Shown: in pieces, positions 2,377 through 64,000 of the stretch
Numbering within the stretch: position 1 is the stretch's first letter
Layout: each line of letters begins with the position of its first letter
From: Strigops habroptila
Taxonomy: Eukaryota > Chordata > Aves > Psittaciformes > Psittacidae
Direction: 5' to 3'
Assembly (NCBI RefSeq): GCF_004027225.2
Contig: NC_044282.2
Span: 65,147,225 to 65,211,224, forward strand
Length of the DNA: 64,000 nucleotides
The notes under the pieces: model-generated
Told to the model about the DNA's origin: nothing
The model's input: only the letters and a program-made list of their open reading frames with translations
The model's database searches: none
Position numbers and translations under genes: made by a program

Positions 2377-4216
2377 ATAGTCTTAAGCATTTTAAACATT
2401 AATTTTATTACACAGACTTAGCTACAAAAGACACATTTTTGCATTAAAAATTTTAAGTAAAAGCATAAAAGAAAAACTGTATTATATGTGGACACAATAA
2501 ATAGACAACTTTACGAATTGTAGAAAATCATGTGTAGAAACTTACCTAAAAAAATGCATCCGTTTCTACAGCTGGCAATGAAGAAAAAGAAAATTCCATC
2601 CAAAATACAGTTAAAGAACACGGCAGCTGTTAAAAGAAAACAATTTATTTTAAAATATATTAAAAAAAAGAGAAAGAAAATTCTGTCACCCTACCCTTCA
2701 AAACTACTAGTTGCCTTGAAAAATAATACTTACTCCCCCCAAAATGGAGATTAAATAACCTAGAGCATTGTGTTGTTTAATTATATCCATTTCCAAGTAA
2801 TTCAATAACTTTTGAGAGCAAAAACTGTAACGTGTATTTCAAGAATTAGCTGAGAGCTCAATCCATGTGAACACTAAATTTCCGTTACTTCTTTTGCACA
2901 TAACATGTTTTCATTTATGCAACTCTTTGTCTTAAAGCGCTACACAAAAGAAACATAATATCAAATAAAACATGGGGAAAGCAGTAAAGAACATTAAAAA
3001 ATTACACCTATGATTACCTTATGATCTAAAAAAAAATAAATACTGGCAGTAGAAAGCACAAACGTGGCAAGAAAATTATGAGACAGTAACAAACTGGAGG
3101 AAAACTGAAGAAAAAGTTGACAGGAAAAACAGCATTCCATTTAGAATGAAAATATCCAAAACTTCGTAAAGGTGCTAAGACTAATAAATCAGCAAAAATA
3201 AATCAAATATACCACACTTCTTGAAGATAAAGAGAAGATGGAAGAAGATTTGGAAGAGAAGATTTGGAAGACCAGGTTGCAGGATTTCAAACATCTGCAT
3301 ATTTATAGATTCCTACAGTGACAACAGTCTGGAGACAGTGGCATGATTTAATGAGAAACACTACCAAGGACCAAAACTTCCTACAACACCAGAAATGTTT
3401 CCATCCAGAAGCAAAGGAGGTATTTTAGAAACTAAAAAACATCAGGAAAAGGACTTATAAAAACCAGATGGGAAGACAAAAGCATCACTCTTTTATTTCT
3501 GTACATTCATATTTTGCTTGAAAATATTAAAGCTTAACAAGTAGAAATAAAATTTAAGCCAAGTAAGAAGAAAAGTTGAGTTGTTAAGTTTCACTAACTT
3601 TAAAAACCGTATCACATTCATAGAAGGCAAAACTTTATGGTATCTTTAGTTAAACAGGCACAAGACAGTGCAGACAGCCTTACACCAATTTAACTCTCTC
3701 ACAGACTAATTATACCGGAAACAGATTTAAAACAAACTGACACACAAAAGCTTTTACACATGGCTTTACACCATATTCATTACCAATCACTTTCAACACA
3801 AGATATGTTGTTATCTTCCAACACCAAATAACTCAAGGAGCACAAGCTTGGGCAAAAAAAGGACCAAGAATGAAAACGGAGCCTTACCTACAGAAGGAAG
3901 TTCAATTAGCTTAACCAAAATCCACTAACCCCACACAATCTGCTATTCTGACACAAACAAATCAGTTTACAGCATGTAAACACTGAATCAGTTGAAAATT
4001 GATAAGCAATCAATTTAAACTGAACCGATTATGCTGAGCAGAAATTACCTCACCTGGGTCCACACCAGGGTTTTTGTACATTTAAATCTTAAATAACCTT
4101 AAATAGTGTTAATTAAGTCTGTACAATGTCCAGGTGCAAAAAAGGTTAGAACCACCAACGTAAAACATTTTAGGACATTGTGGAATAATCTGACTGGAAA
4201 ACAAGCTCCCTTCTAC
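2377..4216. other. AT-rich sequence with one exon-like segment
   Basis: No repeat or known gene was seen, apart from an 81-bp exon-like segment on the minus strand at 2546-2626, described separately. Confidence 0.5.
2546..2626 (-). other. Exon-like segment (81 nt), unassigned
   Basis: On the minus strand a good acceptor (TTTTCTTTTAACAG) and a strong donor (TTTTAG|GTAAGT) enclose 81 nt with a single open frame. That frame would encode a hydrophobic stretch, AVFFNCILDGIFFFFIA, like a membrane segment. I do not recognise the protein, and it is not a WDPCP sequence I know. It could be a non-coding exon, or chance in AT-rich DNA. Confidence 0.22.
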
Positions 4217-4566
4217 CTACCAAGTTCTCTATACTTCCCAGCAAGCCAGACCTCAGCCTTGCTTGCAGCTATTTGCCTTTCAAATTCATCCCCGGAAGGG
4301 ATAAACAAGGTACAATCTTCATCCACATTAAAAACGTAGGGTTATTAACGTATATAAATCACTGTAGTTTGACATTTAAAACACACTAAGTACAACTGTA
4401 CCTTTCCATCCCCGACACTGCAGGTTTCTGTACTGCAGAAGCTGTCAGAGTCTTGCTCAAGCCACAGGAAGTTTTGAGCTGCGGCATGAGCGCGATTAGC
4501 AACAAGACTTGCTAAAACGAGAGCGCTTTTGCATGACAAGCATAAATATTTACGCCTTACACCCAC
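4217..4566 (-). other. Coding-like minus-strand segments, unassigned
   Basis: Two open stretches here have protein-like composition and are GC-richer than their flanks. One (4345-4566) starts MGVRRKYLCLSCKS and includes NFLWLEQDSDSFCSTETC. The other (about 4200-4337) includes CTLFIPSGDEFERQIAASK and ends GKYRELGR at a TAG. They lie on the strand expected for the divergent neighbour, but splice sites are poor and I recognise no family. They could be 5' exons of the neighbour, an old pseudogene, or chance. Confidence 0.25.
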
Positions 4567-5822: not shown

Positions 5823-17073
<11,251 letters not shown>

Positions 17074-17076
<3 letters not shown>

Positions 17077-17136
17077 CTAGATCCTGAAGAAATACAAAAT
17101 GATTTAAGAGTGGGAGAATCTAAAAGTCGTCTCTAA
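17074..17136 (+). CDS. MDH1: MDH1x stop-codon readthrough extension with peroxisomal PTS1
   Basis: The MDH1 stop is TGA followed by CTA, the tetra/hexanucleotide context known to allow several percent translational readthrough in vertebrates. After the TGA the same frame stays open for 19 codons and stops at TAA (17134-17136). The extension starts LDPEE and ends SKSRL. The final tripeptide Ser-Arg-Leu fits the PTS1 peroxisome import consensus (S/A/C)(K/R/H)(L/M). Established work on MDH1 and LDHB shows that this arrangement makes a minor peroxisomal isoform. The frame and the motif are seen directly here. Actual readthrough in this bird is inferred. Confidence 0.85.
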
Positions 17137-17290
17137 GTCTGCTACCAAACACTATTACTGTATTCAAGTCAACTGTCTGTGGCAATTGTGCATTTTAAAG
17201 TCCTTATGCTTACTGGTACTGTTGTGCCTGTTGAGTTATTAGCAAAAGGTTATTAAAGAAGTAAAACTAGTTTGTTGACCAAACTTTTTC
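17137..17290 (+). other. MDH1: MDH1 proximal 3' UTR
   Basis: This short AT-rich stretch follows the readthrough stop and leads to the ATTAAA signal at 17252. I see no further open frame. The exact cleavage point is not visible. Confidence 0.6.
17252..17257 (+). terminator. MDH1: MDH1 poly(A) signal ATTAAA (proximal)
   Basis: ATTAAA, the commonest variant poly(A) signal, lies about 175 bp after the stop. A GT-rich stretch (TTTGTTGACC) follows at about 17271, as expected of a downstream element. Confidence 0.65.
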
Positions 17291-17561
17291 TGTTCAATAC
17301 TAGTTGCTTTCTATGTATGATACAGAATAATTGTTTGCCTCAGCCTTGGCTTCTAACGCACAATCTGAATTTTGATTAGAAATTGGCACTATTGGAACTC
17401 AGTCTGTGATCACTTCAGCATCCTATGGCTCAACTGAAAATGAAATTAGAATGCCAATAGTTCTCCTTGAACCAGTAGTTCAGTGACTCATCTATCACTG
17501 GACAGACTCCAAGTATATACTGTTCACTCTGGTTATGCTTACAATGTTTGTCAATAGAAAT

Positions 17562-17567
17562 ATTAAA
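17562..17567 (+). terminator. MDH1: Possible distal MDH1 poly(A) signal ATTAAA
   Basis: A second ATTAAA is followed by a TG-rich run (TTGTGTAATGG, then GTTTGTTGTGC). It could define a longer 3' UTR. The choice between the two sites cannot be made from sequence. Confidence 0.4.
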
Positions 17568-17628
17568 AGATGCTTAATTGTGTAATGGCTAAGAGTAGTT
17601 TGTTGTGCTTTATTTGCATGTTTTAGTT

Positions 17629-17692
17629 GTGTAACTAATAATATAGTACAGTGTAACTAATAATATAGTATAGTGTAACTAATAATAGTACA
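17629..17692. repeat. 22-bp tandem repeat, three copies
   Basis: GTGTAACTAATAATATAGTA plus two bases is repeated three times, the last copy shortened by 2 bp. An octamer, ATTTGCAT, lies just before it (17612-17619). Confidence 0.9.
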
Positions 17693-17750
17693 ACATAAAA
17701 ACCCCTGAAGACCTATTTTAACAAACCAAGGGAAACTGGTTTTAAGAAGC

Positions 17751-17756
17751 TTTATT
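17751..17756 (-). terminator. Minus-strand AATAAA, possible 3' end of an antisense transcript
   Basis: AATAAA on the minus strand lies about 460 bp past the MDH1 proximal poly(A) signal. No gene is tied to it. Another AATAAA on the same strand lies at 18419-18424. Confidence 0.2.
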
Positions 17757-18349
17757 GATGACTAGCACTTCCATTTGTTTTTTTCCAGGCAAAGTTGCTT
17801 TATGTCAACATCAGACACAAGCCTCAAGGCAGGTTTATACTCCAGCACTACAGTTCAAAAGCAGTGTTGGTACTGTAGCTCAGTATTAATTTCATTGTAG
17901 CTTCAAAGCCTTTTGTTCTAGGAGAAAAGGACTCACTTGATTAAGACCAACTGATGTTAATATACTTGCTTGAGAATTTTCCTGGTGCAGCCTTTAACTT
18001 CAGGAAGGTTCAAATACATTGTACTGTAATTATTCCTTTGCAAACACGCAGGTGAATGTTGCTGGTAACTCTTCTAGACTCCTGCCTATAGTAACCCACC
18101 TGATGTAGACTGAAGAGGTTTAGACTAGGTTTGTTCTGAGAGTTTCTTAGATGTACTACTACCCATTTTGTTTGTTTTCTAAGCACCTTAAATAATAATA
18201 ATGGTATTCTTCTCATACACATAATGTCAATGTTGTCTGTCCTGTTCCAATATAAGTGTTTCTGCCTTGTACTAACATAAATCTTGGGTCTGTCATACCT
18301 GGAGTCATCTCATTTCCCTTTTTTTGGTTTGTTGTCATTAAATGAAGAT

Positions 18350-18943
18350 TCAAAATACAGAATTATTTTGACAAAAAGAAAAAAAAAGCTTAAACTGAAT
18401 TTTAAGGAAATTGAATGGTTTATTTGAGGATTTATCAACTAGAATATAAAATAAATCAGCAAACATCAATAAGCTTATCCTTAAAAATGAGTCTGCTCTC
18501 AGAACATTACTGTAGCAATTAAGTACAGTGACAGTAATGCAGCAAAGACTATACATAAATAGCTGAAAAGGAAAATGAGCATTTTGGAAAATGGGAATAC
18601 CTGCTGCAGCATAGGCCAGCTGGAGACAGCACAGTAGGTGAATGCCTTGAATGCTTATGAAGCAGCTGTTGCAAGAACTTATGTGTTCTTGCAGTCTTAG
18701 GAATAGGCAAGAAGTGTATATACTGTATTTTTCCACTGTTTTTCTTGTTCCTCTAAACCAGTTGGAGTTCAGCTGTGATTGATAAGAAAATTTCATACTT
18801 CCCTCTTTCCATGACAGTTTGGAACTTGTGCGGAAATTAGGGAGGTAAGGCAAGCTGCCAATGTGATGACTGCCTTCTGGTGTTACAATACAAAGTAAGT
18901 GAAATCTCATTTCAACATGAACCTTGGGACCAAAGGAATTCAT
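18350..18943 (-). other. Open frame of 197 codons, unassigned, probably not a gene
   Basis: This minus-strand frame starts MNSFGPKVHVEMRFH and is rich in Phe, Leu, Ser and Cys, as expected of translated non-coding DNA. No domain is recognisable. It ends close to minus-strand poly(A)-like signals, so a transcribed lncRNA or 3' UTR is possible. Confidence 0.15.
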
Positions 18944-19854
18944 TCCAATAATTCCCTACAACTTATTTTAAAACAAAGTGTCTTAGAGGAGGTGGTTGCA
19001 GTCCACACTGTTACTCAGTTTAAGGTGGCAACAGGCTAGGTAAGAAGAGTACACATCTGTGCCTGAAAACCATAAATAAGAGAGGACAAATCCTGCTGGT
19101 GTGCAGGGTGTTTTGTGCCATACCTACGGAAGCATAATGTAGGGAAGGAGCTTTAAAAAAAATCTGGAAGATCTGTTTCTTCAGGGGGGTTTGAGATCTG
19201 TTTTAAAACAGCTTTCTCCAGGAGACAACTCACTTCTAGTAAAGTGATGCTTACAACACTTAGTGTATCGGAACAATTGTGTAATTAACCTCAGTACTTG
19301 ATAGACTATCTCATGGCATATTTAATTCCTCAAGTTAACACTTGAATCTACATTTGGCTCCTCTAATGAATTTTAAGCACTTTGTATTTCCTTCAGGCTT
19401 CTGTGAAGCAATTCAACAGCAAATCTCTCATCTGGTCATTGACCACATACTTAACTACTATCCCACTACTTACAAATTCTTCAGTGGTGGATATTCTTTC
19501 TGTTCGTGTTTCTGAACTGTTTTGTCCTCTGTTCTACTTTCTTCAGTTTCTATATTTCTGGGAGTTTCCCTCGTGCTGTTGTTAGCTATTTTTTAATTAT
19601 TGTATTACTTTGTACAATCTGCACTGTTTTTGCAGGGTGCTTTGGTTATCTCTTAGTAGATATATGAAAATACGCATATGGAAGCAAAAATAGTAGCCAT
19701 CCGCTTTTCCCTCTGCCTTTCAGACAATCAGTTTTCAAGTACAAGAGGAAATTTGCACATTGCTACTCCAAACTTACAGTACTAAGTACTTTGCTCTTCA
19801 CTGAAATGTTTCTATTCTGTGATTTTGGTTTTTTGAGTGTTCGTGGGCTGGAGG
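18944..19854. other. Intergenic, nothing recognised
   Basis: AT-rich unique-looking sequence. No repeat, RNA gene or exon was identified. Confidence 0.6.
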
Positions 19855-20150
19855 ACACGATGTACTAAATGAGGCTGAGAGAACTGGGTTTCCTCATCCT
19901 GGAAGAGGAAATGCTCAGAAGAGGTCTCTTCTCAGAAAAGCCTACCTAATGGGAGGATGCAGAGACAGCAGAGCCAGGCTCCGTGGAAGATCAAGAGGCA
20001 ATGTACACAAGTTGTGACACCAGAAACTGATTTATCAAATCTGAGGATGATCAAATACAGAAGCAACCAAAGCCTTGGACCTGGCCTAGAGCAACCTGCT
20101 ATAGGTCAGCTCTGTGTTGAGCAGGAGTTTGCACTGAGTGACTTCTAACC
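19855..20150 (+). mobile_element. Very old CR1-like fragment
   Basis: AGGCTGAGAGAACTGGGTTT, CATCCTGGAAGAGGAAATGCTCAG and GACCTGGCCTAGAGCAACCTGC follow the order of CR1 sense sequence on the plus strand, with heavy divergence. Confidence 0.45.
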
Positions 20151-21753: not shown

Positions 21754-22465
21754 TATAGAATCATAGACTCATAGAATAGTAAGGGTTGGAAAGGACCTTA
21801 AGATCATCTAGTTCCAACCCCCCTGCCATGGGCAGGGATACCTCGCACTAAACCATGTCGCTCAAGGCTCTGTCCAACCTGGCCTTGAACACTGCCAGGG
21901 ATGGAGCATTCACAACTTCCTTGGGCAACCCATTCCGGTGCCTCACCACCGTCACTGTAAAGAACTTCTTCCTTATATCTAATCTAAACTTCCCCTGTTT
22001 AAGTTTGAAGCCATTACTCCTTGTCCTACCACTCCAGTCCCTAAGGAAGAGTCCCTCCCCAGCATCCTTATAGACCCTCTTCAGATACTGGAAGGCTGCT
22101 GTGAGGTCTCCACACGGCCTTCTCTTCTGCAGGCTGAACAGCCCCAACTTTCTCAGCCTGTCTTCACACGGGAGGTGCTCCAGCCCCCTTATCATCCTCG
22201 TGGCCCTCATCTGGACTCGCTCCAACAGCTCCATGTCCTTTTTATGTTGAGGACACCAGAACTGTACACAACACTCCAAGTGAGGTCTCACAAGAGCAGA
22301 GCAGAAGGGCAGGATCACCTCCTTCGACCTGCTGGTCACGTTTCTTTTGATGCAGCCCAGGATACGGTTGGCTTTCTGGGCTGCAAGCGCACACTGCCGG
22401 CTCATGTTAAGCTTCTCATCAACTAACACCCCCAAGCCCTTCTCTGCAGGGCTGCTCTGAATCTC
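21754..22465 (-). mobile_element. CR1 LINE 3' segment with an intact reverse-transcriptase tail
   Basis: This is the longest and least decayed CR1 copy here. On plus it starts at ATAGAATCATAGACTCATAG (the element's 3' end). Its minus strand holds an uninterrupted 195-codon frame (21848-22435) that is the C-terminal part of the CR1 ORF2 polyprotein: [52 protein letters not shown] and [20 protein letters not shown]. The catalytic reverse-transcriptase motifs are absent because the copy is 5'-truncated, so it cannot move by itself. Confidence 0.96.
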
Positions 22466-25400
22466 TTCTCTCTCCTGATCAGACCATGATGGAAAACCTC
22501 TCCAGAGGAGCCACCTGACTGGCTGTCCTTACAAGCCAAGACCTTCATGGCTATTGTCAAGCTACACAGATCAACCATGCATGCTTTTATTGTAGCAGGC
22601 AACTAATAACACTTGGGATGAAGGTGAGCTTTCATTTGTTATCAGCAGTACAACAGCCAGGACATCCCTGAGCGAGTAATTCCAGCCCGGCAGCTCGGGT
22701 TGGCTTCAGTGAGCAGCTGGACTGAGTTGTGCATCCTTTAGCATTGGGGTGTTCAGCAGCAGCAGTGCACACATACATGTGCAAAGGCAAAATAATGAAG
22801 CTAAGTCAAAGGCTGAGAAAACACACATTGCAGTTTGCTAAACTTTAGGCTCTAGTTTTTAAATCAACTTAGCATTTGTAAAGCCACAGATTTGTGATTT
22901 CCAGAGATCCAGCATAGCCCTCTGTCATGAATTTTTCACTGATTATATTCATATATTCAGTTTTGCTTTCTCATTCAGGCCTGTTTCTCAACATAGATGG
23001 CTTGATTCATTTTAAAATGAGACCAACACCTTAGCTATTGTGACCCTAATGAAAAAAACTTATTATACGATTATTTCCTAAGCCAATGGGAACAGAATCC
23101 TCTCAAAGCTTGAGATGGAGGATTTAGAAAGCCACTAATAAACCAGCATGGAAGTTATTTCAGGAGAAATTTGAACCCCTGCTGAAAGCTCACTGACAGA
23201 GACTTAATAGTCTGGCTGAAAACTGGTTTATAAGAAACCAAACAGCAACTGAAATGGATGGTTTTTGGGAAAAGCATTTTAAGTTTTTTAGTGCCACAGT
23301 AAATACTGCCTCGCATGGAAAGCCCAGCCAGGTCTCTCCTGCAGATGGTGGTGGTTCTCTTGGTTGGGAATGTGGCAATAGAAAGCTCTGTCCATAGCTT
23401 TGCGCTTGCGCGCTCCTGGGAGGGGAAGAAAGAACATTAGGGCTTTCTGCTGGAGGGAAAGCATAATAAGTATATTTAGCTAAATGTCTTCTGCATGCTG
23501 AGCTGACAACAGGCTTTTTATATATGAGGATGCCTGACCAAGGAGAGCACACTGTGAGCTGCTTACGACAGCAGGCTTGAACGCCAGCCCTACAGGTAAG
23601 CTTGCTGTTCAGCAGGATTTTAAACAGAGGATGTGCCACTTTCTCAGCACCACAAACATGAGTACATGGTGCTAATTCCCACTCAGAACTTCAGTTCTGG
23701 GAAAAAAAACCCACCTTCTTTAAGGCAGGCTCTTCCTGGAAGATCTCTATGAAACTAAGCTCAAAGGGAGTCCAAAAAGGTGAAGAGCCAGGGAAAACAG
23801 GGAAGAATGAGGTTTATTCCTCAGACAAGAGGTTGCAGGAGAGAATTAACCCCCCAAGAGAATCTCATTAAAGGTTCTCTTGCATTTTCTAAGTTTATAA
23901 AACAAACAAAGCAGCAAAACAAACTCCTAAAAGGCAATGTTAACAATTCGTCCTGATATTAAAAGGGAGATTGACTTCAAAATAAACCTAAGCCATAATA
24001 CTCATGGCTGTGTTGTGTATGTATCCCACAGGGGAATGGGGATGTGTATTAGCCATACCCATCGCTCCCTGCTGGATCAAGGATGGAGAAAGACAGCTTA
24101 TGTTAGATGAGCGAAAATACACAGCGCTTCTAGGACTGAAAACCAGAGAAAACAGCTCAGCAGGAAGTAAAACATGAGAGTCTGAAAGTTTCTCCTTGAT
24201 CAGTCATTAGGTGCTCATCTCACAGATATGCACTTGTTCCAGTGATTCCTGTGTACTTGAGGTGAGGGTCCCAGGAGGGAAGCACGTCTTTGGGCTGATA
24301 ACTGCCTCAAAGAAGCTGCAATTCCAGCACAACCTAAGCAGCAACCAGCTTCACCGACAAGCTGAAAGCCCAAGTCCCAGGAGGAAGAGCAGGAGGCCAG
24401 CACGGGACAGCTTGCAGTTATCCTTGGAACAAGGGTCAGGTAGTCAGGCAGCCAGGTGCCATTCCTGGTCACACACCATAAGTGTGACAGTACAGGAAAA
24501 GATAAGGAAAACAGGTTTGGACAATTTCAAGATAGAATTTTACCACATCCAAGTTTTGATGCCTGGCCTTTCATGCGTTTCATGGCTGAAAAAGGTCAGA
24601 TTGTTCCCTAAATAGTTAAAACTAACAGACATGTCACTGCCCAGCTGTTTGCAGACCCAGAGTTCAAGAGCATAAGCTTGATTTAACAAGAGCTTTCAGC
24701 ATGGGCTTGTTATCAGTTAGAGGAGGAAAAAATAGATTTGGCAACGTCCTGCCTTCATGCTGCATGGACACCAGGCAAGACAACATCTGACTTCGGAGCA
24801 CCCTGGGTACGTTAATTATCACTCTAGCTGGGTACTCATCCAGCTTCTGGGGTAATTATCCCATTCAAAATTATTATCCCTAACAGGAGGTATCTTCCTC
24901 ATTCTCTCTTTGTATCCCTCTCCCTGGACCACCACAGGCCAACAATCATGATGCATCTTTAGCCTGCAGATGACATTGCTAGTGCTATGATTGTTCTACC
25001 CAGGATGTCTGAAGCAGTTGCAGCTTCCCAGGTTGGCTGTCTCACCAGTGGAGGCAGAGAGGGCACACACTGCTCTGGCATGTCCCCTTCCCTCTGCACC
25101 TAGTTACTATTAGATTTGTGGAGCGGGAAGTCTCAGAGAGACTTTCTTCACCTTGGGCTGTCAAGTGCGCACACCAGGGCTGTCCTATGTAACTCCTCCT
25201 TTGGGAGAGGGCAGTGTATGCATCTGTGGTGGGACTTTACTATAAGAATAATATGTGATGCTATAGTATTTATCCCAGGATACTGCCAAGTGAACTGTTT
25301 TTTAAATGGATCCTTGAGCTGAATGGTGAATATAGTGCTTTTGGCTCTGCTTAGTAGGCTGGACAGCAGCAGAGAGAGTTTTCTGGCCTCACAGCTGCTG

Positions 25401-55919: not shown

Positions 55920-56135
55920 GACTGCCTCAGCCTTCTCTTTTCCAGGCTGAAACCCCAACGCTCTCAGCCTGTCATCACAGGAGAGGTGCTCCAGCGCCCT
56001 GATCATCTTCGTGGCCTCCTCTGGACTTGCTTCCACATACCTCGTGTGTTGTTGCCCCCAGAGCCGGATGCAGTACTGCAGGGGGGGTCTCATGTGAGCA
56101 GAGTAGAGGTAGAGAATCACCTCCACAACATAGTC
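55920..56135 (-). mobile_element. CR1 LINE fragment lacking its 3' end
   Basis: CTTCTCTTTTCCAGGCTGAA, CAGGAGAGGTGCTCCAGCGC and ATCATCTTCGTGGCCTCCTC match the CR1 ORF2 3' region in reverse. On the minus strand ALEHLSCDDRLRALGFQPG can be read. The usual terminal repeat is missing. Confidence 0.9.
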
Positions 56136-56879
56136 CATACAGAGCTGGCAGGAGGAAAGGAGCCCCCCTGTGTCCCCCAAAACACAGCAGAGCTGGGCAT
56201 GCCGACCCACACCACCAGTGAAGGTGGGCTTGGACCAACATGTCGGGCTGCAGAGGAGCATCAGGGGCATCTCCCTTCTGCAGGTGCTACAGCAGGGCAG
56301 TGCTCTGGCGTGGAGCTGCCTTAGCCCTACTGCACCTTCACCCTCATCAGCAAAGCTGCCGATCCCACTTTCTCAGGTCCAGAGTTTGTACCTGCTCCCA
56401 GCCCTTTTGGACTGCTGGGACTCTGTGCTGTCGGCTCCTGCGCACTGATATAAAACCAGGGTGCTGGTATCCACTTGTGTGGTACCAACACACTTGCAGG
56501 GTGCTGAGAGTGTTCACGGAGGGCAGGGACACGGGCTTTCCTGCCATCACGGGGTGTCAGCACCTCAAAGGGCGATGCCTAGCTGCTGCTGGGAAGCGCC
56601 TTCAAGCAGAAATAGGTAAAATATTAAACCAAGAGGGAAATCACAGCGAGTCCAGGAGCAGTGCTTGACCTCCTTGCTCACTAACAACGCTCCACCAGCG
56701 CGGTGTCCCCACGCTGAGGGCAGCCGGGACTGAAAGACTTTTAGATTCGTGCTAAACTTGATAAATCAGAGCTATTACACACACCGAACACCGAATTTCC
56801 TTTAATCTTGCCTCCGAGCCCCATTTTTCGAAGCTCCCACCCCTGAACCGCGGATGTCGCGATAGAACAACCACCGCAA
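56136..56879. other. Intergenic upstream of the UGP2 CpG island
   Basis: GC-richer than the flank. No promoter motif or exon could be supported. Confidence 0.6.
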
Positions 56880-56985
56880 TTTACTTCCACGCGTCTCCCG
56901 TGGGGCGGGAGACTCCCGGGGGGGCAGCGGCGTGAAGGACAACAGGGCTGATGCCCAAGCCGAGCCGAACCTAGCCGACCAGGAA

Positions 56986-56987
<2 letters not shown>

Positions 56988-57041
<54 letters not shown>
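56988..57041 (+). repeat. (GAGCCC)9 hexanucleotide microsatellite
   Basis: Nine uninterrupted GAGCCC units (54 bp) lie in the UGP2 CpG island. Read as protein they would give Pro-Ser repeats, but no gene supports that. A GC-rich promoter hexanucleotide of this type is likely to vary in length. Confidence 0.95.
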
Positions 57042-57167
57042 CCCTCCCCGCGCGGCCTATCCCGCCACCGGCGGGGGCAGACCTCCCCTCAGCGCCCGCC
57101 CCGCCCACTTCCGCCGCCGCGGCCGCGCGGGTCCCGCCGGGAAGGCGCCGGGACCCCGCCCTGGCCG

Positions 57168-57196
57168 GAGGGGGAGGGGGGAGGGAGAAGGGGGGT
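57168..57196 (+). other. G-quadruplex-type run 1
   Basis: Four or more G-runs of 3-6 are separated by short A-containing loops, meeting the usual G3+N1-7 rule on the plus strand. Confidence 0.55.
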
Positions 57197-57487
57197 CTCC
57201 GCGCCGCCGCCCCGCCCCTCCCCGCCCCCGGTGCCGGCAGCGACGAGGTGGGTACAGCGGGACCGGCGCCCCCCCCCACATCCCACATCCCCGCCCCGGT
57301 GCGGCGTGAGGGAGCGGCGGCGCCGCGGGGAGGCCCCTCAGGGCCTCTCCCGCCGCCTGAGGGAGAGGCGGGGCCGCCCTCAGGCCTAACGGCCGCGCGG
57401 GGCACACGGCCCGGCCTGTTCCGTCCCGTCCGGGAGCGGGGAGGAGCCGTGCGGGGAGCCCCGGGGAGGCTGGGCGGCCCAGCCCGG

Positions 57488-57519
57488 CGGGGAGGGGAGA
57501 GGAGGGGAGGGTCGGGGGT
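57488..57519 (+). other. G-quadruplex-type run 2
   Basis: Runs GGGG, GGGG, GGGG, GGG and GGGGG are separated by A, AGAGGA, A and TC, meeting the quadruplex rule. It sits about 320 bp before the UGP2 ATG. Confidence 0.55.
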
Positions 57520-57791
57520 GGCGAAACCCGGGGCGCGGCGGGTCCGCCTCTTTCATTGATGAAATTTAAATTCCTCGGGGGTTGCCTCCCGCCCGCCGGC
57601 CCGGGAGGGACAGCTTGGCGAAGGGGCCAGCGCGGCAGGCGGGCGGGCTACTGCCACCGGGACCGCCGTGTCTGCCGCCTCCCCGCCGCGCAGCAGCCGG
57701 ACCGCCGGCGGCCGGGCTCCGCAGGGGCGCGGGGAGGCAGCCCGTGCTCCCGCCCCAGCCTTGGGGCAAAATCCACCCGGAACGGGTCACT

Positions 57792-57800
57792 CTGTATTTA
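57792..57800 (+). promoter_or_regulatory. UGP2: TATA-like sequence before UGP2 ATG
   Basis: TATTTATAA lies about 36-44 bp upstream of the ATG at 57836. It may be only part of the 5' UTR. It is listed because it is the one AT-rich element at the island edge. Confidence 0.25.
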
Positions 57801-57835
57801 TAAGGGCAAAGTATTTGTTTTACTAAAGAGCGAAA

Positions 57836-57854
57836 ATGTCGGCTTTTGCGAAAG
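57836..57854 (+). CDS. UGP2: UGP2 coding exon 1 (MSAFAK, phase 1 end)
   Basis: Nineteen coding bases end at a strong donor, AAAG|GTAAGC. Residues 1-6 match the N-terminal pattern of the long UGP2 isoform. Confidence 0.88.
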
Positions 57855-60800
57855 GTAAGCTGGCGCGCGTTGTAATGTATTTATTTATTGACTCTTCAGC
57901 TGTGTGCACATAGATCTCTCTTTTCTCCCCCCACTTCTTTCCAGCAGCCCGTTAGAGCTCAGGCAGCGATAGGTGTAGCGGCGCGATCGGCAGCCGAGCA
58001 GCGATGTGCAAGGGCTTGCTCCAAGTGTTACTCGTTATTGAGCAGAGGGGCCTCTGCCGGCTCGGCTCGGTTGGCTTCCCTCCGTTAGATGCGTGGCTCT
58101 GGTGCGGTACAGGCGCACGGTGAAACCAGGCGGTTGTAGCGGTGGGGCTGTTATCCAGTGCCGGTGCACCGGTGGGATCTGGGGGGGTCTTGCAAGCACA
58201 AATCCCCCGTCTCCACTAAGCGGTCTGTTAAACTTGAGGGTGAAAGAGCACTGGGGTCGAACGTATTCACTTCTTTTCGGAGTGTATTTTAGCGTTTTCT
58301 GATCCCGGTGGGCTCCAGTGCTCTCCTTTACTCTCCGCATGTGTGAGCGTGTGTGTACGTGGTCTGAGTTTCAGATTCCTTTATTGCGAAATGGGGAACT
58401 AGCCCACAAGAGGTCATTTTGGGAAGAAAAACAACTTTGGTGCATTGCTGTGGCAGTTTTCTTCCCCTGCTTTCCTGTGTTCCTAATGGTGCTTGTGTGC
58501 TTTTTGTAATGAAATCCTTGCCTGTAGGTTTCCCTAAGAGAAATCCATGCAGGCCTATCAACAAATGTAATGTTGCCCATAGAAGGAACATGAGCAGGTC
58601 TTTCACTATGCAAACTTGGACACTGCAGGCAACCGAGGGCCTTGGCAGGCTCTGGGAAATCGTTGTTGCTTTCCCAGTGGATGTCTAGGACAGTTCAGCA
58701 TCGATGTGTAAAGGCATTGACTGTCTCCAAAAGTCCTGTAGCACCTGGGCAAAATGCAGTGAGCCAAAGGGGGGAAGTGTTGGAGCCATGTTGCTCAACC
58801 CTCTGCTCTGAAACTTATCAAGATAAGCCCCTTCTTGCAGTCAGACACGTTATGAAAATACATTCTGAATTGTTCTTTTTAAACAGAGAGGGCTTATTTC
58901 AGCCTACTGCTGAAGGTGGCCATCTTGCAGGCAAGTGGTATTATTTATGAAACTGAAAGCTGGAGAAACCTAGATAAAGATCATAATCAGTTTTTAAAAT
59001 ACTACCGGAGACTTGACGATCGTAGAAGCTTTTAAAGAAAGTACCTGCCATTTAAATAGTCTCTTATCGGGCCCATAGCACTACAACATGTTGCCAATGT
59101 CAAGTGATATATTTAGCATGAGGATCAGCTGCTAGACTGAGGAATCCAGCTGTGTCTGACTGTAACACCTAAACCCTTGGTGTGTGCAGCTGGCAGGAGC
59201 GGCTGCCTAGGCTGCAGACTTCTGAGTGAGCTCAGGCTGACATGCTCATCTGTTAAGGAGAGAGCACGTTCAAGTTTAGCTTCACGTGTGCTTCAGTCCA
59301 ACATATGTTGACAAACTTTGCCTGTAGTAGTAGGAAAAGAAAAATGTTTGCAAAGGCTGAGTGGGTATGTTCAGTTCTACAAAGTCAAGTGAACTACTGT
59401 TTCTTACCATTGCACATTATAGCGTGGGTAAGGAGAGATTTTTATCCTCATCAGAAATAAAAATTGCCTTGAACTTTTCAGCAGAGTTGGTGGAAGTGAA
59501 GACATTCAGTACCCTCAGCACAGAGTTCAAGGATAGAGCATTTAAAGTTCAGCTGCGTGTTATAACTTACTGGCCACCCTTGATTTTTATGCAAGTAGTC
59601 TGGCTCCAAGGAGACCTGAATAATTTTCTACTGTAGGTCTTTCTGTGTACTGACTTGGATTGCAAAAGTAAGGACAATTCATAACCCTCAGCCCAAAAGA
59701 TTCCCCTTTTTTTCATGAGAGAGGGGACTTCTTGCTTGACTTGTCCCACGACTCCCTCCTCTGCTGAGTCCTTGTGTACGGAGTACCAAGGCAGTGAACT
59801 TCTCCTCAGAGTGAATTAATGAACAAAACTAATCAATTTTAATGCATTCTCTGCTTTTAATGTAGAATGAGAGGAGGAAATACGTGCAGACCCTTAAGTA
59901 AGGGGTCACTGCTGTTCTCTTCTTGTGCAGTTTTCCTGAGGACATCTGTCCCTCATTTTGTTTCTGACAGTGTACAAAGACCTCCTTTTTATTAGCTTGA
60001 TCTGATTTATCATATTTTGTCTTTTCATATGTCAGTTCTGAAGTTCTGTATCATAAACCTGCAAATACTCAGCCATATGCTGTGAGGGCAGGGGCCAGGT
60101 TAGCAGTGAGAGCAGAGCACAAAAGCAGGCTAGAAATAACAGTGGGGGCAGGAGGGTTTGAGTGAAACTCCACGTGTCAGACACCACTATGAGCTTGGTG
60201 AAAGAGCTTCCCTTTCTCTGCTACCTGAGGAAGCTCTTTCTGCTAAAGGCATTAAAATAAGATATCCTGGGTGGTCATGTTTGCAAAGCCCAGTTTCCGA
60301 AGGATCAACTATTTAGTCTTGCTGTTCTGTTCTGTGCTAATCTCCTGCGTGGGCTGGTTCCCCAAGAGTCTTCCACTGCTTTATCCCACCCTTTTCTTCC
60401 TTCAGATAAGTGTTTAAGAACACTGATCCCATAGAAGTGGGCTTAGGCTGAAATCTGAGGCATTGGTAGCAAAATATCTTGGAAGAGGCATTTCTTTTTA
60501 AAAAGAAGTAGTGAGTTTATGTCCGCATGTACCCTTGGAAATCTCTTCCTGCAATTACCCAACACCTCTGCCTCCCATCTGACTTTCAGAGGCACAATAA
60601 CTACTTTTCATTAAGCCTTAGGAAATTTTCCTTGCCGGTAGGAAATAACTGCTTTCAGATATGCAGTTGCACTGGCCCTTCTACTTCCTCATTCCTGCTA
60701 GGGTGAAAAGGGAAATCAACCTTCGCCCGGGCTGTTAAATTTAACAGTAGCTCACACTAAAGGACTGCAGTTGTCGTGCATAAATACCAGCTTCTTCCCA

Positions 60801-63542
60801 AAAACTCTGAGGGACAGCAACATGGGAATAACCAGTACCGAGTTCGTTCATTGGGAGTGGATACGCTAATGCTGCCGTCATGGTCTTGCTCTGGGGGGCC
60901 TTTAGAGAGTGCCATAGATCCCCATCCAGTCCAGATTTTGGTGGACATCTCTTCAGATAAATGCTTAAAACCCTCTGCTTTGCAGAGGCACCTTAAAAGC
61001 AGAAAAGCTTTGAGTTGCTATTTCTCTTGGCTGCTTAGTTACAGTATTCAAATCCTTACTTAGGCAGAACAGATACAGCAGAATAGATACTTTTCCTGCA
61101 CCAGGCAAACACATGCTCTTATGGACTGCAGCCATGTCTACCTCTCTCTTTCCCCAAAATAATAATAATAGTACTAATAATGCTTTCCCCAAGCAACCGT
61201 GCCCTGGCATGTTGAATCTGGATGAGATGAGTGGGTGCAGTAGTTGTTAAATGGTCAACATAAACCCTAAATATTCTCTGTTGCCAGTAAAGGGTGCAGC
61301 CGACAGCTCTGGTAGCTTTGGCGGGCTGGGCTTTGGTAAGAAATGTCTCATCTAGCAGGCTGCTCTGCGTGGTGCTTGGAACAAGCAACAGGTTGGCTTT
61401 GCTTCTCTGTGAGGACTTTGGTGATCAAACGTGTTTAGCATTTGCTTGTTAAGCTGGGGAGAATTTTTAGTATTTATATATAAATAATATATATTAAAAA
61501 AACCCAAGACAAACTAGGACATTATCACATGTTTATTTTAATGATGCTTTTTTCTTTTGATTTGTGATGTTACTTCATGTTTAAATGCTTTTATCTGGTA
61601 GATACAAGTCTTTTGGCTAATAGGAGTGAACAGGATTTTCCTACTCACACAGGGAAGTTGCTAGCTGGTTCTGCCTTACTTAGCCTCAATGTGTTTAAGA
61701 AAAATGAATGATGGTCCCTGTTGGATACTTGGTATTTGCAGAGTTTCTTCTGAGATGCATTGCATCATATTGGGAGGTTCAAATGTTTTACAGACTGATG
61801 AACTGTGAGAAATGGCCACTGTTGCTGTAACAGAAGTCATGTATTACAACATGTTGTCAGGAGGATTACATACATATGAAAGCATCTCCAAGCAGTTATT
61901 TTTTTGGAGGTTTAAACCATGTTTCAGTGTGCATTAACCCAAAATGTGCGCATGAAAAGACATAAGTTGTAGCAGTTTGGTATGAACGTATCAAGCTGGT
62001 GTAGACCTCCTCGTTTTCCTGTAGGAGGAAGTGCTTCCTAATGAAGAGCTGTCCTGTCCATGTTTTTACATGCTCAACCTGGAAAGATATGCCTAGCAGG
62101 CTTTCAACTATTACCTGCTTTTCTACTAAATGAAGCATTTGAATAAAAAAAAAAGAACCTATTGTTCATTGCACTGTTCATCTTGAGCTGGCGTTTCCCC
62201 TGTGTTGCACCTCACACACTATGTGCACTGCAGCACTTGTCTGTCTTTTTTTTTCTCCTCCCCTACCTGCAAAACAGTGCAGTCAGGAAAATGGCTTCTG
62301 TGGGCTTCAAAGCAAGGATTAGATACTGTCGCTGAGGCTGTGGAATACTTTGCTTAAAAAACCTAAAATAAAACCAAAATTGTATTAAAATGAACTGCCT
62401 CTGGCTGTCTTATGCTCAATAGAACAGCCTTTTAATGCGTGTTCTAAATCAGTAAACTTTAAATGCAGGTTCCTCTTCTAACAATATTTTCTGGCAGTAT
62501 CACTCTGTTCACTTGCAAAGTTTCCTCCTATCCCTTTTTGCACTAGTATTCAGGGTGTTTCTAAAATCCAGCTATATTTGGCAATACATGACTCTCTGTG
62601 TTACCGAGAAGTGATTACTCAAGGGATTTGGCAGAAATTAAATTAAGTGAGGTCTTTAGAGAACATACTCAGAATGTCTTTGGAGAACACGCTCGCTTCA
62701 AACACTTTCTGTTGGAAAATAGTCCTGTCATCTCCCGCTTCTTTCTGTGATGTGGACTTTACCGTGTAGAACATTTGTGTATTTACTCTTTTTCACTTCC
62801 ACGGAGCTTATCACTTTCAAAAGCAAAACAAATGCTGAAGTGATAGACAGACGAATTTTCTGTGTTGCTTAGTAACTGAAACGCACGCTGGAGTGTGAAA
62901 ATGCTCACACGAGAAAGTAACGGAGTGTTTACTGGAACAAACTGAAGATCCTGTGAAAGTGCACTGTATAAATCATTAAAGCATATGTTTTTATTTGCTT
63001 GTGTGAGCAGAAGGATACTCTTGATCACAATGTTCTACATAAAAGAATTTTTTTAGTAAAAAGCTTTTTCACACTTCTACTTGCTAAAGCGTGTTGAGGC
63101 AGTAGGATGTGAATTCTTTGGCTCTCTAGCGAAAAAGTGTGCTGCTGTGGATTATGGACACTTCTTGAGATAGATCATTGGTCTTTTGAGAGTTTTTTGA
63201 GTTTTGAGAGAAGAATTGTTGTTCTTTTGGCCCCAATTTAAGGTCTGTTCTCCAAGTTACAAAGAACAAAACCTAGGTTCCTGGAGTGCTAGCACAGTAG
63301 TAAAATGAGGCTGGATTATATGAGTTTATTAATTTTTAAAATGAAGGCTGTTTGTAGTCTAAATAAGCTGGTTTTCTTCTTTTTCCTTTAACCCTTTTGT
63401 AATTTTTATTTAAGATTTCAGCAAAGCAATGTCTCAAGCTGGCACTTCACAGTTTCAGGAAGTCATTCGACAAGAGCTGGAGTATTCAATGAAAGTAGAA
63501 CTTGATAAGATACTCGCGACCGCACCTTCAAGTGAGCTAGAG
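57836..63542 (+). CDS. UGP2: UGP2, UTP-glucose-1-phosphate uridylyltransferase, 5' part (exons 1-2)
   Basis: This is the start of the gene for UDP-glucose pyrophosphorylase, which makes UDP-glucose and pyrophosphate from UTP and glucose-1-phosphate in the cytosol. UDP-glucose feeds glycogen synthesis, glucuronidation and glycosylation. Exon 1 (57836-57854, ending in phase 1) joins exon 2 (63415-63542) to give 49 residues, MSAFAKDFSKAMSQ and onward. This aligns closely with the human N-terminus, including SQFQEVIRQELE. An in-frame TAA lies 12 nt before the ATG, so the start is the first possible one, with A at -3. Met12 (63429-63431) is the start of the known short isoform. The catalytic nucleotidyltransferase domain lies beyond the right edge. 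The gene follows MDH1 on the same strand, as in mammals. Confidence 0.93.
57855..63414 (+). other. UGP2: UGP2 intron 1
   Basis: This 5.6-kb intron runs between strong splice sites. I saw a small AT-rich tract near 61475-61500 and an AAT run at about 61157, but no mobile element or further exon. An alternative first exon for the short isoform may be present but is not recognisable. Confidence 0.85.
63415..63542 (+). CDS. UGP2: UGP2 coding exon 2 (residues 7-49)
   Basis: The acceptor is TTTATTTAAG and the donor GAG|GTAAGG. The exon is 128 nt. It encodes DFSKAMSQAGTSQFQEVIRQ and on to SSELE, clearly orthologous to human UGP2 exon 2. Confidence 0.95.
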
Positions 63543-64000
63543 GTAAGGAGCACAATGTGGATGCAATTCAAAGCATGAGAAACTAGATGCAGGAAATTGA
63601 GGCAAATATCATGCAGGGAGACAAATCATAGAATATTATGATCCTTAATTTCAGGATGTGTTCTGGTTCTGTGTGGAAGAGTAGCCTGGATGCAGTGTAA
63701 ATAGACTTTCAGTTCCTTATTAACTGGGTGACAGAGTCACTAAGTGTTTAATCATCTTCAGTTAGTAAAGGTTTTCTGTTTAATGGGTTACAGAAAGGGA
63801 GGGTAAAGCTTTTACCCTGAAGATTGGGCCAAATTCTAGTGGTTATGATTTTGACTTGTCTTTTGGGTATCCAAGTTTGTTTTGTACATTGAGTTTTAGT
63901 GGAAATGAGCTTTTAGTCCCTTCTAGAATTTTTCCTAAATTTTAGCAAGTCTGCTTCAGTGCTGATAAAATTACTCTTGTGAGTAGATTGTACATCAAGT
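63543..64000 (+). other. UGP2: UGP2 intron 2, truncated by window edge
   Basis: This intronic sequence follows the exon 2 donor. No feature was recognised. Confidence 0.85.

Follow-up and report, generated by a model that had tools for sequence, protein, structure and literature searches.

Results

An intact MDH1 gene and its surroundings

The window (the whole 64,000-nucleotide stretch of Strigops habroptila DNA that we analysed) carries on its forward strand an intact nine-exon gene for cytosolic malate dehydrogenase, MDH1, whose 334 codons terminate in the TGA at 17074-17076. The sequence-only reading had assigned the gene ending at this TGA to MDH1, and both protein comparisons bear this out: the 41 amino acids before the TGA, encoded by the last exon, correspond to the C-terminal end of structurally solved cytosolic malate dehydrogenases (E = 2.5e-19, PDB search), and the joined 334-residue product of the nine exons aligns end to end with a cytosolic malate dehydrogenase of solved structure (E = 3.5e-203). 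AG/GT boundaries are present for the eight exons checked, of nine. We infer the first coding exon, because it comprises an ATG only (at 5823) and its donor is not a strong consensus; the candidate is the sole ATGGT on the forward strand between 5000 and 7000, and it gives MGEP- in frame with exon 2. The coding parts of the gene are as follows:

5823..5825, forward strand: proposed MDH1 coding exon 1 (inferred; ATG only, in a GC-rich stretch, then gtcggt)
11018..11116, forward strand: MDH1 exon 2 (AG acceptor, GT donor; protein match)
11838..11934, forward strand: MDH1 exon 3 (AG acceptor, GT donor; protein match)
12547..12722, forward strand: MDH1 exon 4 (splice sites; enclosing open frame matches Pfam Ldh_1_N, E = 4.9e-15)
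14096..14218, forward strand: MDH1 exon 5 (splice sites; protein match)
14347..14523, forward strand: MDH1 exon 6 (splice sites; enclosing open frame matches Pfam Ldh_1_C, E = 1e-12)
16163..16276, forward strand: MDH1 exon 7 (splice sites; Ldh_1_C match in the whole-genome search)
16492..16581, forward strand: MDH1 exon 8 (splice sites; protein match)
16951..17073, forward strand: last MDH1 exon, coding portion, with FLSSA as its final residues (PDB match, E = 2.5e-19; one whole-genome match)

Several other features lie around this gene. Downstream of it, an exon of the next gene, for the N-terminal part of UGP2 (UTP-glucose-1-phosphate uridylyltransferase), is found on the forward strand at 63414-63575 (E about 1e-11; no Pfam match), and MDH1 and UGP2 are neighbours in human as well. 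The interval 56001-58000 is very GC-rich (65% GC, with 9.3 copies of the hexamer CCGAGC at 56986-57041) and looks like a CpG-island promoter, perhaps that of UGP2. The 3' flank of MDH1 holds a tandem repeat (22-base unit, 2.7 copies, 17629-17687). On the reverse strand, a 201-residue open frame just downstream of MDH1 (18350-18955; no Pfam match) is probably due to chance, and a 226-residue open frame at 21848-22528 (no Pfam match) presumably shows similarity to the reverse-transcriptase end of CR1 LINEs, repeats that are frequent in bird genomes. No Pfam family was found in six long open frames of the window besides those of MDH1, nor in three further ones, and a 42-residue reverse-strand open frame at 4216-4341, considered as a candidate for the neighbouring gene upstream, matched nothing in PDB at E 0.1. 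We also searched the genome (1,148,577,936 bases in 89 contigs) for a second copy or retrocopy of MDH1, which we reject: among the best candidates scored, one candidate, and hence one genomic match, was returned for the last exon.

The sequence that follows the MDH1 stop

The stretch at 17074-17136 of the window sequence reads TGA CTA GAT CCT GAA GAA ATA CAA AAT GAT TTA AGA GTG GGA GAA TCT AAA AGT CGT CTC TAA, and can be divided as follows:

17074..17076, forward strand: TGA, first stop codon and predicted site of readthrough (from the sequence)
17077..17080, forward strand: CTAG, the high-readthrough 3' context UGA CUA G (from the sequence; motif as given in excerpts of PMC5133446 and PMC12233894)
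17077..17133, forward strand: predicted readthrough extension of 19 sense codons, LDPEEIQNDLRVGESKSRL (from the translation)
17125..17133, forward strand: putative hidden PTS1 tripeptide SRL (from the translation; the zebra finch MDH1x end is also SRL and works in HeLa cells, excerpt of PMC5133446)
17134..17136, forward strand: second stop codon TAA (from the sequence)

The features on which the sequence-only reading had built its case are thus present as described: CTAG stands directly after the TGA, the frame stays open for exactly 19 codons (translated as LDPEEIQNDLRVGESKSRL) before the TAA, and the final codons (GAA TCT AAA AGT CGT CTC TAA) give ESKSRL and a stop, so that the extension ends in SKSRL. 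Read in either of its other frames, this 60-base stretch is interrupted by stops. A further genomic copy of this arrangement was sought and rejected, the first 30 bases, used as a degenerate pattern, giving one genomic match. Public contigs, considered as a source of related sequences through vertebrate contamination, were set aside: pattern scans matched 0 viral contigs and 11 other contigs, all titled as bacterial.

The stop context compared with that of human MDH1

The stop context here, CTCCAGTGCA-TGA-CTAGATCCTG, is identical to that of human MDH1, TTCCTCTGCC-TGA-CTAGACAATG (human bases from an excerpt of PMC4359377), at 13 of the 20 flanking bases and differs at seven (positions -10, -6, -5, -1, +9, +10 and +11), with AG here versus TC in human at -6/-5 and T versus C at +9. 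The changes at -6/-5 and -1 are synonymous between the two sequences compared (Ser TCT to AGT and Ala GCC to GCA). According to the excerpt of PMC12233894, upstream context has a strong effect on readthrough efficiency: in human MDH1, exchanging TC for GA at -6/-5 lowers readthrough from 7.8% to 1.4%, whereas T to G at -6 gives 4.7% and G to C at -3 gives 1.4%. The AG exchange at -6/-5 does not appear among the human MDH1 exchanges reported in that excerpt. Because the context differs from the human one, including at -6/-5, positions known to affect readthrough, the efficiency here cannot be assumed to equal that of human.

It is on these departures (AG at -6/-5, T at +9) that the best surviving alternative draws, namely that the tail is a relic, homologous to that of MDH1x, and that, with the altered stop context, too little readthrough occurs to be of consequence in this species. 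We nevertheless judge this to be very improbable, since UGA CUA G, the G at -3, TC at -9/-8 and the A at +8 are all kept as in human MDH1, and both the frame and the SRL-type PTS1 are intact. No support was obtained for a stimulatory RNA structure, the predicted fold of 17074-17200 being less stable than those of its shuffled versions (z = +2.07, with 198 of 200 equalling or exceeding its stability); in human MDH1, the 50 bases after the context are dispensable for readthrough (excerpt of PMC5133446).

Expected frequency of the component features

We evaluated how often such features arise by accident by counting, on both strands, every stop for which the extension ends before the window does, with an extension end called PTS1-like if it fits [SAC][KRH][LM]. 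CTA follows 16 of the 2,275 TGA codons. Taking all three stops together, 15 of the 5,986 extensions (the MDH1 extension included) have PTS1-like ends, as do 5 of the 2,275 TGA extensions. A single TGA, the MDH1 stop, has both CTA and a PTS1-like end (1/2,275). The remaining component, length, is not selective, with 2,288 extensions (38% of the 5,986) reaching at least 19 codons. A loose tail pattern, GARWSNAARWSNMGNYTNTRA (aimed at ESK-[S/C/T]-RL-stop, although other residues also fit), has 192 occurrences across the 1.15 Gb genome compared with 269 for its reversed control. Given this proportion of long extensions and these occurrence counts, neither the tail nor the open frame is evidence by itself. 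The sequence-only reading had argued that a neutral 3' UTR would be unlikely to give such an arrangement; this stands for the combination of features but not for the open frame taken alone.

Outside the window, 28 of 2,180 TGA codons carry CTA in a sample of 21 further loci from this genome; the sample is biased, eight of its loci having been chosen for TGACTA and another eight for the tail pattern. One of these 28 sites has a PTS1-like extension end: TGA CTA A followed by LIFECHL (seven codons, ending CHL). This site (L007:1501, that is, G000:C1:67073; it is not known to mark a gene end) is also the one PTS1-like case, with context CTAA, among eight TGACTA sites that came from the start of contig C1.

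A neutral 3' UTR in which CTA, an open frame and a terminal SRL coincide by accident is a reading with some arithmetic behind it: apart from the commonness of 19-codon frames, the lack of enrichment of the tail pattern and the CHL site in the biased sample, the product of the CTA and PTS1-like rates is about 2e-5 per TGA, which over an assumed 10,000 or so TGA-ended bird genes would give of the order of 0.1-1 case. That case would, however, have had to fall on the exact gene and the exact tripeptide reported for non-mammalian vertebrates (excerpt of PMC5133446), and the combination is unique among the window's TGA codons; we give the accidental origin a very small chance, slightly below that of a relic. 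The case for a readthrough cassette thus rests on the rare combination of features together with orthology to MDH1x, and it is the orthology that is decisive. Decoding of the UGA as selenocysteine instead of near-cognate misreading, which would fit a UGA codon within an extended frame, can be set aside as having next to no probability, in that at gathering thresholds the window yields no Rfam family (SECIS included), a search of 16900-20000 at E up to 1 likewise gives no SECIS (one chance-level plastid match only), and human MDH1x has Trp or Arg inserted at the stop position (excerpt of PMC5133446).

LDHB and LDHA in the same genome

Using an LDHB C-terminus as the query, we obtained four exon matches at two places in the genome, which we take, from their identity to that query, to be LDHB (locus L024, G000:C3) and LDHA (locus L025, G000:C4). 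The LDHB-like last exon (81% identical to the query) ends CTG TAA TAT, with the next frame reading YMNVRLQQ*, and the LDHA-like one (47% identical) ends TTT TAA ATC; neither the TGA CTA motif nor a PTS1 is present at the stops of these two last exons. Among MDH1, the LDHB-like gene and the LDHA-like gene of this genome, the cassette is therefore present in MDH1 only. An excerpt of PMC4359377 describes the LDHB extension (LDHBx) as confined to mammals, leaving a 'bird gap', and this gap holds in the present genome, since both genes are without the readthrough motif and PTS1.

Discussion

Proposed function of the cassette

We interpret 17074-17136 as a bird MDH1 cassette for readthrough to MDH1x (with a probability of roughly 0.95), where readthrough, import and role are assigned by analogy with published work on the zebra finch PTS1 and on human MDH1x. 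The gene, the frame, the stop context, the tail, the one match of the last exon in the genome and the lack of an equivalent in the LDHB-like and LDHA-like genes are observed directly. By this model, most ribosomes would terminate at the UGA and yield cytosolic MDH1, and a few per cent (going by human reporter figures) would misread the UGA in UGA CUA G via a near-cognate tRNA, add 19 more codons and terminate at the UAA. The SRL end of the extended subunit would then be recognised as a PTS1, leading to its import into the peroxisome, where MDH1 would be expected to help to re-oxidise NADH.

Neither the mechanism of MDH1 readthrough nor its presence in birds is new, both having been published. 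That birds keep the signal, with Ser as its first PTS1 residue, as proposed in the sequence-only reading, agrees with the SRL found here and had already been reported for non-mammals (Hofhuis 2016). What is added here is small: LDHB without a PTS1 in this genome, and a bird stop context in which seven of the 20 flanking bases are unlike human. With this locus, functional stop-codon readthrough as already published for MDH1 gains one more genome, in which LDHB lacks the signal, as well as a concrete stop context from a bird; the known mechanism is unchanged. One could speculate that birds trade a weaker stop leak (the departure at -6/-5) for a stronger import signal (SRL over the human CRL); we regard this as unlikely. 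Were it true, the peroxisomal dose of MDH1 would be set by balancing two parameters, without LDHBx as a backup.

Comparison with known systems

The MDH1x readthrough isoform was described in Stiebler 2014 and Hofhuis 2016 (PMC4207609 and PMC5133446), which, like the other papers cited here, we draw on in excerpt. For human MDH1, readthrough of 4.34%, driven by UGA CUA, is given in PMC5133446, with other figures of 2.91% (PMC4359377) and 7.8% (PMC12233894). The excerpted literature on stop codon readthrough yielded no report of MDH1 readthrough measured in bird cells, and we found no paper titled on MDH1 that gives the tail peptide as text.

Closest in design outside MDH1 is LDHBx, which belongs to a related NAD-linked dehydrogenase and combines the same motif with a hidden PTS1 (excerpt of PMC4359377); it differs in being reported as confined to mammals, and LDHB in this genome, unlike MDH1, is without a PTS1. 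Human MDH1x also has a short PTS1-bearing extension at its C-terminus, and its stop context shares UGA CUA G A, the G at -3 and TC at -9/-8 with the present locus. The human form differs in its PTS1, CRL instead of SRL, and at the seven flanking bases; it has 19 added residues, counting the stop position, compared with 20 here by the same count, although the human count is ambiguous because the excerpt of PMC5133446 also speaks of 57 nucleotides.

Conservation extends well beyond mammals in these accounts. Among animals, conservation of the cryptic MDH1 PTS1 reaches back as far as Hydra (excerpt of PMC4207609), and the extension is conserved among the vertebrates aligned in figure 5a of PMC5133446, where the PTS1 of MDH1x is CRL in all mammals and SRL in all non-mammals aligned (the discussion of that paper excludes amphibia). 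In the same paper's HeLa cell experiments, as excerpted, the human MDH1x tail was imported into peroxisomes, and the zebra finch tail (last 10 residues, SRL end) was also peroxisomal and 43% more localised than the human one. Zebrafish Mdh1x (NP_001303854.1) acquires an SRL end via UGA readthrough to a UAA (excerpt of PMC8919083), with the same first and second stops as here. For the features compared (gene, SRL end and stops), as far as these excerpts describe them, non-mammalian MDH1x shows no difference from the locus described here: zebra finch, zebrafish and the present genome have the same gene with the same SRL-ending hidden PTS1.
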